Shown piece after piece: positions 32,536 through 37,974 of a DNA stretch of 37,974 nucleotides. Source of the stretch: an uncultured Lachnospiraceae bacterium (GTDB lineage Bacteria > Bacillota > Clostridia > Lachnospirales > Lachnospiraceae); NCBI GenBank assembly GCA_900317555.1, contig ONHF01000021.1, positions 1 to 37,974 of the forward strand, in the 5' to 3' direction. Numbering within the stretch: position 1 is the stretch's first letter; each line of letters starts with the position of its first letter. Below the pieces are notes generated by a model. It worked only from the letters and a program-made list of their open reading frames with translations, was not told the DNA's origin and searched no databases. The position numbers and the translations under genes were made by a program.

Positions 32536-33807
32536 ATGGATAAGGAACTGCGGCAGGTGAAAGAATCTTTCTGGAAGAACTACGGTTTCGTCGTTTCAAT
32601 GATGATCGCGATCGCGCTTGGAACGATCACCGGACTTGTCTGGCCGGGCGCGACTGTTTTGTCCCCGCTGGGCGATCTCTTCATCAACATGATGTTCTGC
32701 GTCGTCGTACCGATGGTGTTCTGCTCGATCTCGTCGGCTATCGCCAACATGAAGACGCCCGGAAGAGCCGGAAAAGTCATGGGCGTGACAACCGTAACAT
32801 TTCTTGTGACGGCCGCGATCGCCGCGATTGTCATGTATGTCGTCGTCCGTTTCATCAACATTGTGCCGGCCGGCTTCTCGGTTGACAAGATGGTGACCAG
32901 TACCGAAGATATCGCGGATATTACGCCGGGGCAGCTGATCGTGAATTTCTTTACAAAGCCTGATTTCGGCGAGCTGCTTTCGAGGCGCGCGATGCTTCCT
33001 CTTATTGTGGCCGCGATTCTGTTCGGCTTCGGCATTCAGCTTTCGGGAGGCCCTGAAACCAGAACTGCCGCGATGCTGGAAGATCTGACCGCCTGCATCA
33101 TGAAGACGGTGAAAATCATCACATTCTACGCGCCGGTCGGTTTCTTCGGCTTCTTTGCAAATCTTGCAGCAACATACGGGCCGGAGCTGATGGGCGGATA
33201 CGCCAAAACACTGGCCGTCTACTACATCATGTGCTTTGTCTACATGTTCCTTTTCTTCCCGATTTACGCCCGCTTCGGCGGCGGAAAAGGCGGGGCGGGT
33301 GTCATGTGGAGACATCTGTTCAAGCCGGCAGCCGTAGCGTTCGGAACCTGCTCGTCGGTTGCGACGATCCCTACGAATATGGAAGCAGCGCAGGAAACCG
33401 GCATTTCCAAAGATGTTTCGGAAATTGTTCTGCCGCTCGGCGCCACAATGCACATGGACGGTTCCGCGATGAGCGCGATTGTCAAGGTCGCGTTCCTGTT
33501 CGGTATTTCCGGTATGGATTTCGGAACCGGTAGAGCCGTGATCGCGATTATTGTGGCAATTTTCGCTTCGGTCGCCATGTCCGGCATCCCGGGAGGCGGC
33601 GGTGTAGGAGAACTGGTCCTGTGCTCCATTTTCTTCAATAACAGTCCGGAGCAGCTGACCGTTGCGTATACGCTCGCGCTCGCGATCGGGAATCTCGTGG
33701 ATCCCCCGGCGACCATGGTCAACGCGGCGGGAGATTATGTCGTTTCGTTTATTGTCTCCAAATATGTCGACGGAAAGGACTGGCTGCAGAAGCAGCTTTC
33801 AAAGTGA
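32536..33807 (+). CDS. Dicarboxylate/amino-acid:cation symporter (DAACS family)
   Basis: A 423-residue secondary transporter that takes up glutamate, aspartate, C4-dicarboxylates or Ser/Thr with Na+ or H+. Family blocks are the serine-rich loop TCSSVATIPTNMEAAQ, PLGATMHMDGSAM, GGGVGELVL and the NAAGDYVVS segment, in the expected order. About eight hydrophobic helices are visible. GAGGAGG precedes the start. The exact substrate cannot be read from sequence. The stop lies one base from the end of the convergent PP-loop gene. Confidence 0.92.
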   Translation: MDKELRQVKESFWKNYGFVVSMMIAIALGTITGLVWPGATVLSPLGDLFINMMFCVVVPMVFCSISSAIANMKTPGRAGKVMGVTTVTFLVTAAIAAIVMYVVVRFINIVPAGFSVDKMVTSTEDIADITPGQLIVNFFTKPDFGELLSRRAMLPLIVAAILFGFGIQLSGGPETRTAAMLEDLTACIMKTVKIITFYAPVGFFGFFANLAATYGPELMGGYAKTLAVYYIMCFVYMFLFFPIYARFGGGKGGAGVMWRHLFKPAAVAFGTCSSVATIPTNMEAAQETGISKDVSEIVLPLGATMHMDGSAMSAIVKVAFLFGISGMDFGTGRAVIAIIVAIFASVAMSGIPGGGGVGELVLCSIFFNNSPEQLTVAYTLALAIGNLVDPPATMVNAAGDYVVSFIVSKYVDGKDWLQKQLSK

Positions 33808-33808
33808 G

Positions 33809-34966
33809 TCAGTACTCATCAAGGAACGAATGTTTCTTTCCTTTATATTTATAGCCAAGGAGCTGATCCACGGTGACATTCTCGGTCGCGTGGAAGATGT
33901 TCGTTTCAACGTCGGGAATGTCTTTCCTGAGCTGCGCGATCAGCATCTTGGTCATCACGCGCTTTGAGCCGGTGTGAGAGCCGTCCGGATTCACGGCGCA
34001 GGTTGTGCAGGTGTCCGTGAAATGACAGGCACACTGGATAAAGTGCAGTCCGTAATAGTCGCGCCAGCGTTTGATGTCGTCTTCGCGCACGAAGTACAGC
34101 GGTCTTATCAGTTCCATACCGGGATAGCTTGTTGATTTGAGCTTGGGCATCATCGCGTTGAACTGTCCCGAGTTCAGCATTCCCATCAGAGCGGTTTCAA
34201 TCACATCGTCAAAATGATGCCCGAGAGCGATTTTATTGCATCCAAGCTCCCGGGCCTTTTTATACAGATACCCGCGGCGCATTCTCGCGCACAGATAACA
34301 GGGCGAAGTCCGGATATTATAAACCGCGTCAAAGATGGTTGTCTCGAAAAATATAACAGGAATCCCGAGGAGCTTTGCGTTGCTCTCTATGATATGCCGG
34401 TTCGCTTCGTTATATCCCGGGTCCATGCATAGAAAAACGAGATCGAATTTTCTCTGCCCGTGCACCTGAAACTCCTGAAAGAGCTTTGCCATCAGCATGG
34501 AATCTTTGCCGCCGGATATGCAGACGGCAATTTTATCGCCGTCTGCAATCATCTGATACTTCAAAACAGCTCTCGCGAACGGATTCAGCAAAGCCGCGTG
34601 AAATTTTTTCTGAATACCGTTTTCGATTTCCTGTCTCTTCTTATCACCCTGCGCTTCGTTTTTAATGGCGTCGAGCGCCCAGGCACCGTATCCGCCGGAG
34701 AGACAGCAGGCGTCATACCCTTTTTCAATCAGATACTCCGCCAGATCGCGGGTGATTGTTCCGTACTTACAATAAAGAATGATCTTCTTATCCTTCGGCA
34801 GAGGAGTGAGCGCAGCGTCAGCGAAATGCCTGACCTGGTCCGGTGTAAACAAAACGCAGCCCGGAATAAAACCATGCTCATATTCCTCTTGCGTTCTGGT
34901 GTCAATTAACATATACTCTTGCGGGCGCAGGGCGTTCAGCTCCTGCGGTGTGATTTCAGAATTCAT
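33809..34966 (-). CDS. Rhodanese domain fused to TtcA-like PP-loop sulfurtransferase
   Basis: A 385-residue fusion. Residues 1-98 form a rhodanese domain with the persulfide-forming cysteine C66 in YCKYGTI. Residues 140-385 form an ATP-dependent PP-loop domain with SGGKDS (151-156), CYLC (C223, C226), GHHFDDVIET, and more cysteines at 312, 314, 320 and 323. TtcA uses three Cys to hold a 4Fe-4S cluster for 2-thiocytidine formation in tRNA. Here the rhodanese could feed sulfur directly; that is inference. The ATG at 34966 has AAAGGATGG upstream; the longer frame from 35050 crosses the promoter. Confidence 0.85.
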   Translation of the reverse strand: MNSEITPQELNALRPQEYMLIDTRTQEEYEHGFIPGCVLFTPDQVRHFADAALTPLPKDKKIILYCKYGTITRDLAEYLIEKGYDACCLSGGYGAWALDAIKNEAQGDKKRQEIENGIQKKFHAALLNPFARAVLKYQMIADGDKIAVCISGGKDSMLMAKLFQEFQVHGQRKFDLVFLCMDPGYNEANRHIIESNAKLLGIPVIFFETTIFDAVYNIRTSPCYLCARMRRGYLYKKARELGCNKIALGHHFDDVIETALMGMLNSGQFNAMMPKLKSTSYPGMELIRPLYFVREDDIKRWRDYYGLHFIQCACHFTDTCTTCAVNPDGSHTGSKRVMTKMLIAQLRKDIPDVETNIFHATENVTVDQLLGYKYKGKKHSFLDEY

Positions 34967-35038
34967 ATGTCCATCCTTTCCGGATTTACCTGCACAGCTG
35001 GCCTGCGCGATACCCATATCTAGAAAACAATCAGCGAC

Positions 35039-35044
35039 ATTATA
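35039..35044 (-). promoter_or_regulatory. -10 box of the rhodanese-TtcA-like gene
   Basis: A perfect TATAAT on the minus strand, with only a weak -35 18 bases upstream. Its leader is about 65 bases. Confidence 0.35.
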
Positions 35045-35146
35045 CAACATATTGTGACGAAAAGCGAAAAAATCACCAATTGCACCGGACCGATTTGTTC
35101 ATATTACCGACTATGAAAAGCACGGCATCTAGTGTATTATAGCAGA

Positions 35147-35194
35147 GTACAATATCTTGTGTACAGATTGACTGTGCTAGTCTAAATCTTGTAG
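35147..35194 (+). promoter_or_regulatory. Tandem NrdR boxes upstream of nrdD
   Basis: Two 16-bp sites: GTACAATATCTTGTGT (35147-35162) and AGTCTAAATCTTGTAG (35179-35194). Their cores CAATATCTTG and CTAAATCTTG match the NrdR core CWATATATWG at nine and eight of ten positions. The cores are 32 bases apart, the spacing typical of paired NrdR boxes. They lie 150-195 bases before nrdD within the 375-base gap 34967-35341. Other items in that gap are a TATTAT (35135-35140), a TTGACT (35168-35173) and the divergent promoter at 35039. Confidence 0.65.
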
Positions 35195-35341
35195 TAACAA
35201 GTCTAACGAATCCACACGGGAACACGAAGTTTTCTGAAAGAATTCCGGTTGTACATCGTAGTATCTGCGTGCGGCCGCCGGAGGGGTGTTTTTGCGGCAC
35301 GTATCCATTTTGTTATTTGAGAACAAGAGGACGGGAGATCA

Positions 35342-37555
35342 ATGGAAGCGGAAAAGGTAATGGAGAACACAGCAGTAACGGTTCACACAAACGTTATTAA
35401 AAGAAATGGCCAGGAGGTCGGTTTTGACATCGAGAAGATTGTAAACGCAATCGGAAAGGCCAATAAAGAGGTAAGCGGCATTTATCAGCTGAATCAGTAT
35501 CAGATCAGCGCGATCGCGGAGAATATCGCCAGGAAAGTTGCGCAGGCGCCGCACGCGGTCAACGTGGAAGACATTCAGGACATGGTCGAGAAGGGGATCA
35601 TGGAGATGCGCGGCTACGAAGTCGCGCAGAAGTATGTCCGTTACCGCTACAAGAGAGAGCTGTCCCGGAAATCGAACACGACGGACAACGGGATACTTGC
35701 GCTCATCAATCAGGAGAACGAAGAGGTAAAGCAGGAGAATTCCAATAAGAATCCTGTCATCAATTCTACGCAGCGTGATTATATGGCCGGCGAGGTCTCC
35801 AAGGATCTGACCAAGAGAATCCTCCTTCCGGAAGATATTGTCCGCGCGCATGAAGAGGGCATCATTCACTTCCACGATTCGGATTATTACGCGCAGAAGG
35901 AGCACAACTGCGACCTGATCAATCTGGAGGATATGCTGCAGAACGGCACGGTCATCAGCCAGACCATGATCGAGAAGCCGCACAGCTTCTTCACTGCCTG
36001 CAATGTAACAACGCAGATTGTCGCACAGGTGGCTTCCAATCAGTACGGCGGCCAGTCGTTTACGCTTTCGCATCTGGCTCCGTTTGTCGATATATCCAGA
36101 CAGAAGATCCGCCAGAATGTTATTGACGAGCGTACTGCCTGCGGCGAGCCGCTCGATGAGGAAATCATCGACAAGGTTGTGACCGCAAGACTGAAGGAAG
36201 AGATCAAGTCCGGCATCCAGACGATTCAGTATCAGCTGATCACGCTGATGACCTGCAACGGACAGGCACCGTTCGTAACCATGTTCATGTATCTGGACGA
36301 GGTTCCGGATGGCCGCACAAGAGAGGATCTCGCGCTTGTGATTGAAGAGGCGCTCAAGCAGCGCATGCAGGGTGTCAAGAACGAAAAGGGCGTCTGGATT
36401 ACGCCGGCATTCCCGAAGATCATCTATGTGCTTGATGAGGATAACATTTATCCGGACTCCAAGTATTATTATCTGACCGAACTGGCCGCGAAATGCACTG
36501 CCAAGAGGATGGTTCCGGATTATATTTCCGCGAAAATCATGAAGAGAGACAAGGGCGACGTATATCCCTGCATGGGATGCCGCAGCTTCCTGACACCGGA
36601 TAAGGCTGGCCTTGGAGAAAACGGGAAGCATAAGTATTACGGACGTTTCAATCAGGGCGTTGTAACCATCAATCTTGTAGATGTTGCCTGCAGCTCAAAC
36701 GGCGATATGGATAAGTTCTGGGATATTCTCGAAGACAGACTGGAACTCTGCCACAGAGCTCTGCGCTGCCGTCACGAGAGACTTCTCGGGACGCCTTCGG
36801 ATGTCGCTCCGATTCTCTGGCAGTACGGCGCTCTCGCGAGACTGAAAAAAGGCGAGAAGATCGATCGCCTGCTGTACAATAACTATTCAACCATCAGCCT
36901 CGGTTATGCCGGCCTGTATGAGATGTGCATGAGAATGCTGGGCGTATCGCATACGGACCCCAAGGGCAAAGAGTTTGCGCTGAAGGTTATGCAGAAGCTC
37001 AATGACAAGTGTGCGGAGTGGAGAGAAGCCGAGAATATCAGCTATTCTCTGTACGGCACTCCGATGGAATCCACGACGTATAAGTTCGCGAAGTGCCTGC
37101 AGAAGAGATTCGGTATTATCAAGAACGTGACGGATCATAACTACATCACGAATTCGTATCATGTAAATGTCCGCGAAAACATTGACGCGTTCACCAAGCT
37201 CCGTTTCGAGTCCGATTTCCAGAGACTCTCTCCGGGCGGTGCGATTTCGTATGTGGAAGTGCCGAACATGCAGAACAACATTCCGGCTGTTTTGTCTGTC
37301 ATGAAGTACATTTATGACAACATCATGTACGCGGAGCTCAATACGAAGAGCGATTACTGTGAAGTCTGCGGTTATGACGGCGAGATCAAAATTGTCGAGG
37401 ACAAGAACGGCAAGCTTGTCTGGGAGTGCCCGAACTGCGGCAACCGTGATCAGTCCAAGATGAGCGTGGCGCGGCGTACATGCGGCTATATCGGAACACA
37501 GTTCTGGAATCAGGGCCGTACGCAGGAGATTAAGGACAGGGTGCTGCACCTGTAA
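35342..37555 (+). CDS. nrdD: Anaerobic ribonucleoside-triphosphate reductase (class III)
   Basis: Makes deoxynucleotides without oxygen using a glycyl radical. The 737 residues start with an ATP-cone (VIKRNGQEVGFDIEKIVNAI to about residue 95) that senses ATP/dATP. The HFHDSDYYAQKEHNCDLINLEDML block and the PCMGCRSFL region follow. A zinc site is formed by CEVCG and CPNCG. The radical glycine is G715 in RRTCGYIGTQF, 23 residues from the end. A GGGAG site precedes the start. Its activase NrdG is usually encoded next to it, but no nrdG begins before the window ends; a TniQ-like frame appears instead. Confidence 0.97.
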   Translation: MEAEKVMENTAVTVHTNVIKRNGQEVGFDIEKIVNAIGKANKEVSGIYQLNQYQISAIAENIARKVAQAPHAVNVEDIQDMVEKGIMEMRGYEVAQKYVRYRYKRELSRKSNTTDNGILALINQENEEVKQENSNKNPVINSTQRDYMAGEVSKDLTKRILLPEDIVRAHEEGIIHFHDSDYYAQKEHNCDLINLEDMLQNGTVISQTMIEKPHSFFTACNVTTQIVAQVASNQYGGQSFTLSHLAPFVDISRQKIRQNVIDERTACGEPLDEEIIDKVVTARLKEEIKSGIQTIQYQLITLMTCNGQAPFVTMFMYLDEVPDGRTREDLALVIEEALKQRMQGVKNEKGVWITPAFPKIIYVLDEDNIYPDSKYYYLTELAAKCTAKRMVPDYISAKIMKRDKGDVYPCMGCRSFLTPDKAGLGENGKHKYYGRFNQGVVTINLVDVACSSNGDMDKFWDILEDRLELCHRALRCRHERLLGTPSDVAPILWQYGALARLKKGEKIDRLLYNNYSTISLGYAGLYEMCMRMLGVSHTDPKGKEFALKVMQKLNDKCAEWREAENISYSLYGTPMESTTYKFAKCLQKRFGIIKNVTDHNYITNSYHVNVRENIDAFTKLRFESDFQRLSPGGAISYVEVPNMQNNIPAVLSVMKYIYDNIMYAELNTKSDYCEVCGYDGEIKIVEDKNGKLVWECPNCGNRDQSKMSVARRTCGYIGTQFWNQGRTQEIKDRVLHL

Positions 37556-37560
37556 AAATA

Positions 37561-37685
37561 TAATTTGATTGAAAACATAATAATTTGATCGGAAATAAGT
37601 GCGATTAAATGTTATGCCAGAAGCCATACAGTCAGCAACTGTATGGCTTTTTTGTTAACTAATTATAAATTGATCGAAAATAAAA
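37561..37685 (+). repeat. Three 20-bp repeats in an AT-rich segment, possible transposon end
   Basis: Copies at 37561-37580, 37581-37600 and 37666-37685 share the pattern TAAWTTGATYGRAAAYA. The first two are directly adjacent in tandem. The second and third are each followed by TTATGCC. They sit between the nrdD stop and a TniQ-like gene. Short repeats in this position are what TnsB-binding sites at a Tn7-like end would look like. A TGT (37551-37553) overlapping the nrdD stop could be the terminal trinucleotide of such an end; that part is speculative. Confidence 0.6.
37622..37653 (+). terminator. Strong intrinsic terminator after nrdD
   Basis: AGCCATACAGT (37622-37632) pairs perfectly with 37638-37648 around a 5-base loop and runs into six Ts. 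It lies between repeat copies two and three. It could end nrdD transcription or insulate an inserted element from the outside. Confidence 0.92.
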
Positions 37686-37689
37686 CCTT

Positions 37690-37974
37690 ATGCCGAGTGT
37701 TCCTGTTGTGATACCCATTGAAACTGATGAGCTTTTATACAGCTGGCTGATACGCATGTCCGAAGCTAATGGTTTTTCAAGTTTCCGTTCGTTTATTAAT
37801 TCGTATATCACCCACTATCAGCAGGTATTGACAATGTTTGTCGGACCGACTGAACTATTTATCAGCGGGGATACTCTCCAGTTGAAGGATTACAGCAAAA
37901 CAGACTGGCCTTGGTATTTTGACGGGGAGGCGAAGCTGAAACGGCATGAGACGGTCTTTCCGCAGGAATGCAGG
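37690..37974 (+). CDS. TniQ-like protein, N-terminal fragment cut by the window edge
   Basis: The frame is open from the ATG at 37690 to the last base (95 codons, no stop). The N-terminus PSVPVVIPIETDEL followed by LYSWLIRMSEANGF matches the opening of TniQ/TnsD proteins, where a proline-rich lead and an ET-x-LYSWL-x-R-x-A-x-x-NG signature precede zinc-binding residues. A Cys is present near the cut (residue 94). TniQ directs target choice in Tn7-like transposition. No clear ribosome site precedes the ATG, so initiation may be weak. Codon use is more AT-rich than in upstream genes. The zinc fingers and the rest of the protein are outside the window. Confidence 0.7.
   Translation, partial: MPSVPVVIPIETDELLYSWLIRMSEANGFSSFRSFINSYITHYQQVLTMFVGPTELFISGDTLQLKDYSKTDWPWYFDGEAKLKRHETVFPQECR

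Follow-up and report, generated by a model that had tools for sequence, protein, structure and literature searches.

The window, by which we mean the whole stretch of DNA analyzed here, is one entire contig (C13, 37,974 bases) of genome G000, whose assembly comprises 2.29 Mb in 32 contigs and is 87% complete. Judging from its sequence, the segment 37551-37814 at the right-hand edge of the window very probably represents the left end of a transposon of the Tn7-like kind, inserted where nrdD, the gene encoding the anaerobic ribonucleoside-triphosphate reductase, has its stop codon. A Tn7-like edge at the 3' end of nrdD had been proposed in the first-pass annotation of this DNA, and it is supported here by an insertion-like divergence at the stop codon from the closest relative found (G203, a genome of the same genus), by an end layout shared with complete sister elements that reside in nrdD genes of two further genomes of the genus (G209 and G236), and by the homology of the adjoining open reading frame (ORF) to TniQ proteins, including that of a more distant genome, G025. 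The features of the region are the following:

35342-37555, forward strand: nrdD, 737 aa, the attachment gene (Pfam NRDD, Gly_radical and ATP-cone).
37546-37550, no strand assigned: GCACC, the expected left copy of a 5-bp target duplication, deduced from the TGT terminus; in G203, GCACC is followed by TGTAATTACC.
37551-37559, forward strand: probable element terminus, TGT plus six bases; the TGT-N6-site spacing is that of the G209 element end, and G203 diverges at 37556.
37560-37579, forward strand: putative TnsB-binding site 1 (ATAATTTGATTGAAAACATA), offset 9 from the terminus.
37580-37599, forward strand: putative TnsB-binding site 2 (ATAATTTGATCGGAAATAAG), offset 29 from the terminus.
37621-37653, forward strand: hairpin plus T run, resembling an intrinsic terminator (12-nt perfect inverted repeat, 5-nt loop, then TTTTTT).
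37665-37684, forward strand: putative TnsB-binding site 3 (ATAAATTGATCGAAAATAAA), offset 114 from the terminus.
37690-37814, forward strand: 5' part of a tniQ/tnsD-like gene, codons 1 to ~41 (Pfam TniQ; homology to TniQ of G025, G209 and G236).
37815-37974, forward strand: fragment of an FMN-reductase/flavodoxin-like gene, covering its C-terminal part; it shares the frame of the TniQ start without belonging to TniQ (by its homologues; a relative in locus L023 is Pfam FMN_red).

In the window, nrdD is full-length and encodes an ordinary class III ribonucleotide reductase, glycyl radical domain included (Pfam PF13597, 647.6 bits), and its Pfam NRDD domain reaches residue 736 of 737. Over window positions 33405-37555 the sequence was 93.7% identical to that of G203, and no match was observed from 37556 onwards. 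The AT-rich turn after the stop that had been pointed out previously was evident as a drop in GC content from 0.51 in nrdD to 0.27 over 37556-37689. Downstream of its own nrdD gene, G203 harbors a terminator-like sequence, an 83-aa ORF and transporter genes (a polyamine-type ABC transporter, by eye). The first-pass annotation had suggested a comparison with the nrdD-nrdG junction of relatives lacking the insertion; a relative lacking it was indeed found, diverging at the nrdD stop, and the sequence next to that stop turned out to be the 83-aa ORF and transporter genes rather than an nrdD-nrdG junction. After the stop G203 differs completely, as an insertion would lead one to expect.

In G000, the sequence that flanks nrdD downstream in G203 was located, starting at +60 relative to the stop, on a separate contig (C16), with 98.3% identity over 525 bp, which indicates that the nrdD locus of G000 is interrupted, at an assembly break. 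The first 59 bases of the G203 flank were absent from 25 matches of a search of the G000 genome (40 of 90 candidates scored) and had no meaningful match in the contig-terminus stretches of G000. The first 135 bases of C16 (L152:1-135) are largely common to the starts of contigs C6 (99 bases exact) and C3 (96% over 124 bases); C16 therefore starts in a multi-copy repeat, and for this reason its start was ruled out as the right end of the element. The repeat ends in a motif that we take to resemble the 3' end of a group II intron, a match that Rfam did not return.

The sequence of the proposed junction agrees with the insertion of a bounded element. The terminus gives nrdD the last two bases of its final Leu codon and a TAA stop (CAC C/TG TAA, the slash marking the junction), as had been anticipated from the TGT at the stop codon, and nrdD is thereby left whole. 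The pattern is that of a site-specific insertion sparing a conserved gene, seen here in one proposed insertion: nrdD retains its full length, its stop is restored, and its counterpart in G203 lacks the insertion. The three repeats after the stop that had been reported earlier were confirmed as a 16-nt unit that starts at 37560, 37580 and 37665, copies two and three being 88% identical to the first; when the spacer was shuffled 500 times with dinucleotide composition preserved, three copies were obtained in 0/500 cases and two copies in 5/500. The window thus combines a TGT terminus with several repeats of the putative transposase-binding type. Measured from the TGT at 37551, the offsets of 9 and 29 are equal to the first two left-end offsets of the G209 and G236 elements, and the third repeat lies at 114. 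Moreover, the insertion point is one base into a codon in both the window and G209, a coincidence of codon phase with a chance of one in three. The hairpin at 37621-37653 could, by its sequence, substitute for nrdD's own terminator.

The ORF that follows starts at 37690, 134 bases after the nrdD stop and 139 bases inside the element end, and it contains no stop before the contig end. Its first residues match Pfam TniQ (residues 7-55, 27.2 bits versus a cut-off of 27; in the genome scan 26.9 bits, slightly below the cut-off), and they show 44% identity over 39 aa to an 814-aa TniQ adjoining TnsA/B/C in G025 and 41% identity over 37 aa to TniQ of G209 and G236. When the TniQ start was searched against the genus (62 genomes, E up to 0.01), matches were obtained in G000, G209 and G236. 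In a sample of the family (397 genomes, 40-aa query, E up to 0.05) seven genomes including G000 gave a match; apart from G000, the stop-free matches were to three TniQ genes, all adjoining TnsA/B/C or TnsC, from the two genomes G025 and G117, and the other four matches contain stops and were taken as chance. Membership in the TniQ/TnsD family is assigned to codons 1-41 only.

ORF residues ~40 to 95 showed up to 85% identity to the C-terminal part of a ~210-aa FMN-reductase/flavodoxin-like protein, whose full-length relative in L023 matches Pfam FMN_red. In 6-base bins, the nucleotide identity to the reductases (30 of 78 reductase matches compared) was 0.02-0.28 up to 37814, 0.84 from 37815, and then 0.38-0.96 (full bins). 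Because identity jumps sharply at 37815, we assign 37690-37814 to the start of tniQ and the last 160 bases, 37815-37974, which reach the end of the contig, to another gene; the step at 37814/37815 also rules out the ORF as an intact TniQ gene. The TniQ-like gene annotated 134 bases after the stop is thus retained as to its start at 37690 and its TniQ-like character up to about codon 41, and has to be replaced by an FMN-reductase-like fragment from 37815 onwards. The 264 bases before the tail (37551-37814) keep their meaning under either origin of the tail considered below.

Support for the end layout comes from two complete elements in the same genus:

L139:2793-18414: complete Tn7-like element in G209, 15,622 bp.
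Reverse complement of L140+L141, 7796-20245: complete Tn7-like element in G236, 12,450 bp.

The G209 element encodes a TniQ of 821 aa, a second TniQ of 626 aa, TnsA (231 aa), TnsB (725 aa), TnsC (544 aa) and an MmeI-like type IIG restriction enzyme of 929 aa. The G236 element encodes one TniQ, TnsA, TnsB and TnsC, which are 94-100% identical to those of G209, as well as a 919-aa MmeI-like protein (by eye). In both genomes the host gene is a second type of nrdD that carries a C-terminal glutaredoxin-like domain and is 24% identical to the nrdD of the window. Along this host gene the identity between G209 and G236 was 78-97% per 60-base window (from L139:898), and it jumped to 98-100% at the left end, which starts with TGTTACGCAACAATTT in G209 and TATTACGC in G236; the right end of both elements closes with GTAGGGAAACA. 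The putative binding sites are found at offsets 9 and 29 in the left end and 9 and 63 in the right end. Together with the jump in identity, clean 5-bp target duplications define the element boundaries; they are CAAAC in G209 and CAAGC in G236, a difference that points to two separate insertions. In the sister elements the nrdD frame crosses the left end and continues for 153 codons, closing with an element-borne glutaredoxin-like domain; in G209, this domain and that of the host, which lies beyond the right end, share 59% identity over 73 aa. The G209 insertion lies after NrdD residue 711, Pfam NRDD ending at residue 704, and in both the window and G209 the insertion is thus close to where the NRDD catalytic domain ends.

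An uninterrupted nrdD was present at this site in the six close relatives with a readable site (NrdD 93-96% identical). The search of the genus for second-type nrdD yielded 36 rows from 34 of the 62 genomes, and 30 loci were fetched. The exact left-end string was present in two of these and absent from 26; the remaining two (L252 and L279) run off their contig before the site. In L277, one of the loci devoid of the string, the second-type nrdD stops at the insertion site. Considering the window together with the sister elements, we think it somewhat probable that, in this genus, Tn7-like elements repeatedly use class III ribonucleotide reductase genes as attachment sites, inserting where NRDD ends or just beyond, the window element recreating the stop only and the G209 and G236 elements supplying their own glutaredoxin-like domain, with the end repeats becoming a translated linker.

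Some further properties of the sister elements deserve mention. The 626-aa TniQ gene that adjoins the left end in G209 (L139:3561-5441) was not seen in G236, despite a core of 8.8 kb that is ~96% identical, and the difference may represent a gain, a loss or a swap of a target selector. The type IIG MmeI-like restriction enzyme (L139:15070-17856 and its G236 counterpart) adjoins TnsC as cargo, and the first part of the two copies diverges more than the flanking genes. The C-terminal region of the large TniQ (query residues ~600-800) resembles many ORFs of ~200-240 aa in the family (L223-L249) and is possibly an AbiEi-like DNA-binding domain.

Several observations weigh against a Tn7-like left end in the window. 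A TniQ match was found at 0 of the 23 nrdD 3' ends of relatives (198 to ~14,850 bases each), which were fetched from 24 long matches, five short partial rows being excluded; the nrdD site is therefore rarely occupied. At the sister elements, the left terminus of G236 is TAT and not TGT, and no copy of the window repeats within 3 mismatches was present at the G209 or G236 element ends; because the repeat sequences differ, the window element and the sister elements would represent different lineages. In the G000 bin, one G025 query each for the TnsB transposase and the TnsC ATPase, which Tn7-like transposons carry, mostly together with TnsA, gave no match, in a search that had no positive control, and neither a right end nor a verified target duplication was seen in the G000 assembly. 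The TniQ homology extends over ~40 residues at the Pfam cut-off, and the ORF turns into a different gene after 125 bases, which makes the contig end suspect.

As regards the rest of the element, which had been expected to the right, C13 ends at 37974 and contains no further sequence. In the terminal stretches covered for the other 62 contig ends of G000 (C17 partly masked), no copy of the three repeats was found within 2 mismatches; at 3 mismatches, nine termini showed single matches or pairs. An exact search of viral contigs with the junction, repeat and tail gave no match, and neither did a plasmid search. Other nrdD 3' ends of the genus were considered as occupied sites and, L114 apart, rejected: five spacers were examined more closely (L105, L106, L111, L113 and L114), two of which seem repeat-rich. 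In L111, the gene after nrdD resembles the gene after nrdD in L131; the contig of L114 runs out after ~198 bp, and L114 may still be an occupied site.

The origin of the reductase tail bears on the state of the element. In our judgment, which is not a computed value, the chances that the tail stems from a wrong join at the contig end are a little better than even, and those of a real deletion that fused the element to the FMN-reductase-like gene a little below even. The latter is the basis of a variant of the proposed insertion, compatible with it, in which a deletion joined tniQ codon 41 to codon ~145 of the FMN-reductase-like gene and left a dead, truncated element, a variant that we regard as possible though short of probable. 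In agreement with it, the fusion of TniQ and reductase is in frame and contains no stop, but this would occur by chance in one case in three. The terminal overlaps between G000 contigs are of exactly 99 bases in 10 of 11 cases and 92 in one (63 termini, C17 masked), pointing to a k=99 assembly graph. A join into an intact, equally abundant gene should then branch after ~99 bases, and the contig runs 160 bases past the junction; there was probably no competing intact reductase path in the graph at the join, which speaks for a real junction or a pruned branch. Likewise, no second, intact copy of the FMN-reductase-like gene was found in the G000 bin. On the other side, a wrong join is suggested by the contig breaking off 160 bases beyond the junction even though the bin contains a single copy of the reductase, and G203 showed no DNA match to the reductase piece of the tail.

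The reductase was ruled out as a gene linked to the element, since it is widespread (178 relatives, the best 80 retained), its ORF has differing neighbors by eye in the loci that show it (6 of the 7 viewed), and the bin lacks a second copy. As a separate observation, three relatives of the tail's FMN-reductase-like protein (L083, L088 and L094), 63% identical over the matched part, are on contigs titled Methanobrevibacter and Clostridia, a spread for which archaeal-bacterial gene transfer or binning errors may account.

If the whole tail 37551-37974 were a wrong assembly join, it would never have adjoined nrdD. The terminal 160 bases, which are foreign to the TniQ gene, fit such a view, and the identity to G203, which is 94.5% over the whole nrdD gene and 98.8% over its final 164 bases, could result from a mixing of reads from a sister strain. 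Nevertheless, the conserved radical domain encoded by the 3' end of nrdD can explain the high identity, and a random join is not expected to fall exactly at a TGT with sites at 9 and 29 and a recreated stop, so we consider this explanation very unlikely. It is at least as improbable that there is no transposon and that the AT-rich spacer with its solitary TniQ-like ORF is just the native sequence 3' of nrdD in this species, as the wide variation downstream of nrdD among the 23 loci of relatives could suggest, because G203 has its own terminator-like sequence and flank, the flank surviving on C16 in G000, and because the TGT terminus, the site spacing and the restored stop agree with the bounded ends of an element.

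With a Tn7-like insertion as the preferred explanation, the following sequence of events may be proposed. TnsB would bind the three repeats and pair the ends of the element, and TnsC would connect the paired ends to the target. The target would be chosen by a TniQ/TnsD-type protein that recognizes the conserved 3' coding end of nrdD, in the way reported for TnsD at glmS (PMC2918618). Upon insertion, the TGT terminus would recreate the final codon and the TAA stop, and the element end would bring along the terminator-like hairpin. The remainder of the element, which we infer to exist beyond the assembled sequence, should finish with ATAATTTGATCGAAAA-type sites in inverse orientation and a terminal ACA, after which GCACC, the presumed second copy of the 5-bp duplication, and TGTAATTACC-like host DNA would be expected.

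Tn7-like elements are already well known. Among the literature matches listed, no paper named nrdD as a Tn7-like attachment gene and none described the replacement of a gene end by a Tn7-like element, although word searches are a weak test; those listed papers that contain both nrdD and Tn7 deal with other subjects, as judged by title. The string 'nrd' has no occurrence in the main texts, taken without supplements, of PMC10293859 and PMC8649781. On the reading proposed here, nrdD, a core gene of anaerobic metabolism, would be added to the possible safe harbors of Tn7-like elements. The sister elements present a Tn7-like insertion within a coding sequence that supplies a replacement gene ending, and they provide a concrete test case for the reading of coding DNA by large TniQ/TnsD proteins. 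The nrdD sites are, in addition, candidates for safe insertion in anaerobes for which genetic tools are scarce.

TniQ also belongs to CRISPR-associated transposons (PMC9876797). Inspection of the G209 and G236 ORFs by eye, with no dedicated search made, brought up no Cas gene or CRISPR array, and, compared with those transposons, the TniQ proteins of these elements are large (626 and 821 aa). The window element resembles Tn7 and Tn7-like elements with TnsD/TniQ targeting in its TGT terminus, in the repeated ~20-bp sites that begin at offset 9, in the TniQ gene by its end, and in an insertion point at the 3' end of a conserved gene, which stays whole. The terminus of Tn7, too, reads TGT, with the first TnsB site likewise at offset 9, and Tn7 inserts in a spacer and not on the stop codon. 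The window element therefore differs from Tn7 in its insertion on the stop codon itself, as well as in its attachment gene, which is nrdD, in having the TniQ gene nearest the left end, and in being represented in the assembly by the left end only. With the G209 and G236 elements, it shares the left-end offsets of 9 and 29, the codon phase of the insertion, a TniQ gene reading inward from the left end and a target near the end of NRDD. In contrast to the window element, the sister elements lie inside an nrdD gene whose C-terminal domain is glutaredoxin-like, and they bring a substitute 3' end for that gene; they are further distinguished by other repeat sequences, by right-end sites at 9 and 63, and by a TniQ that is 41% identical over 37 aa.

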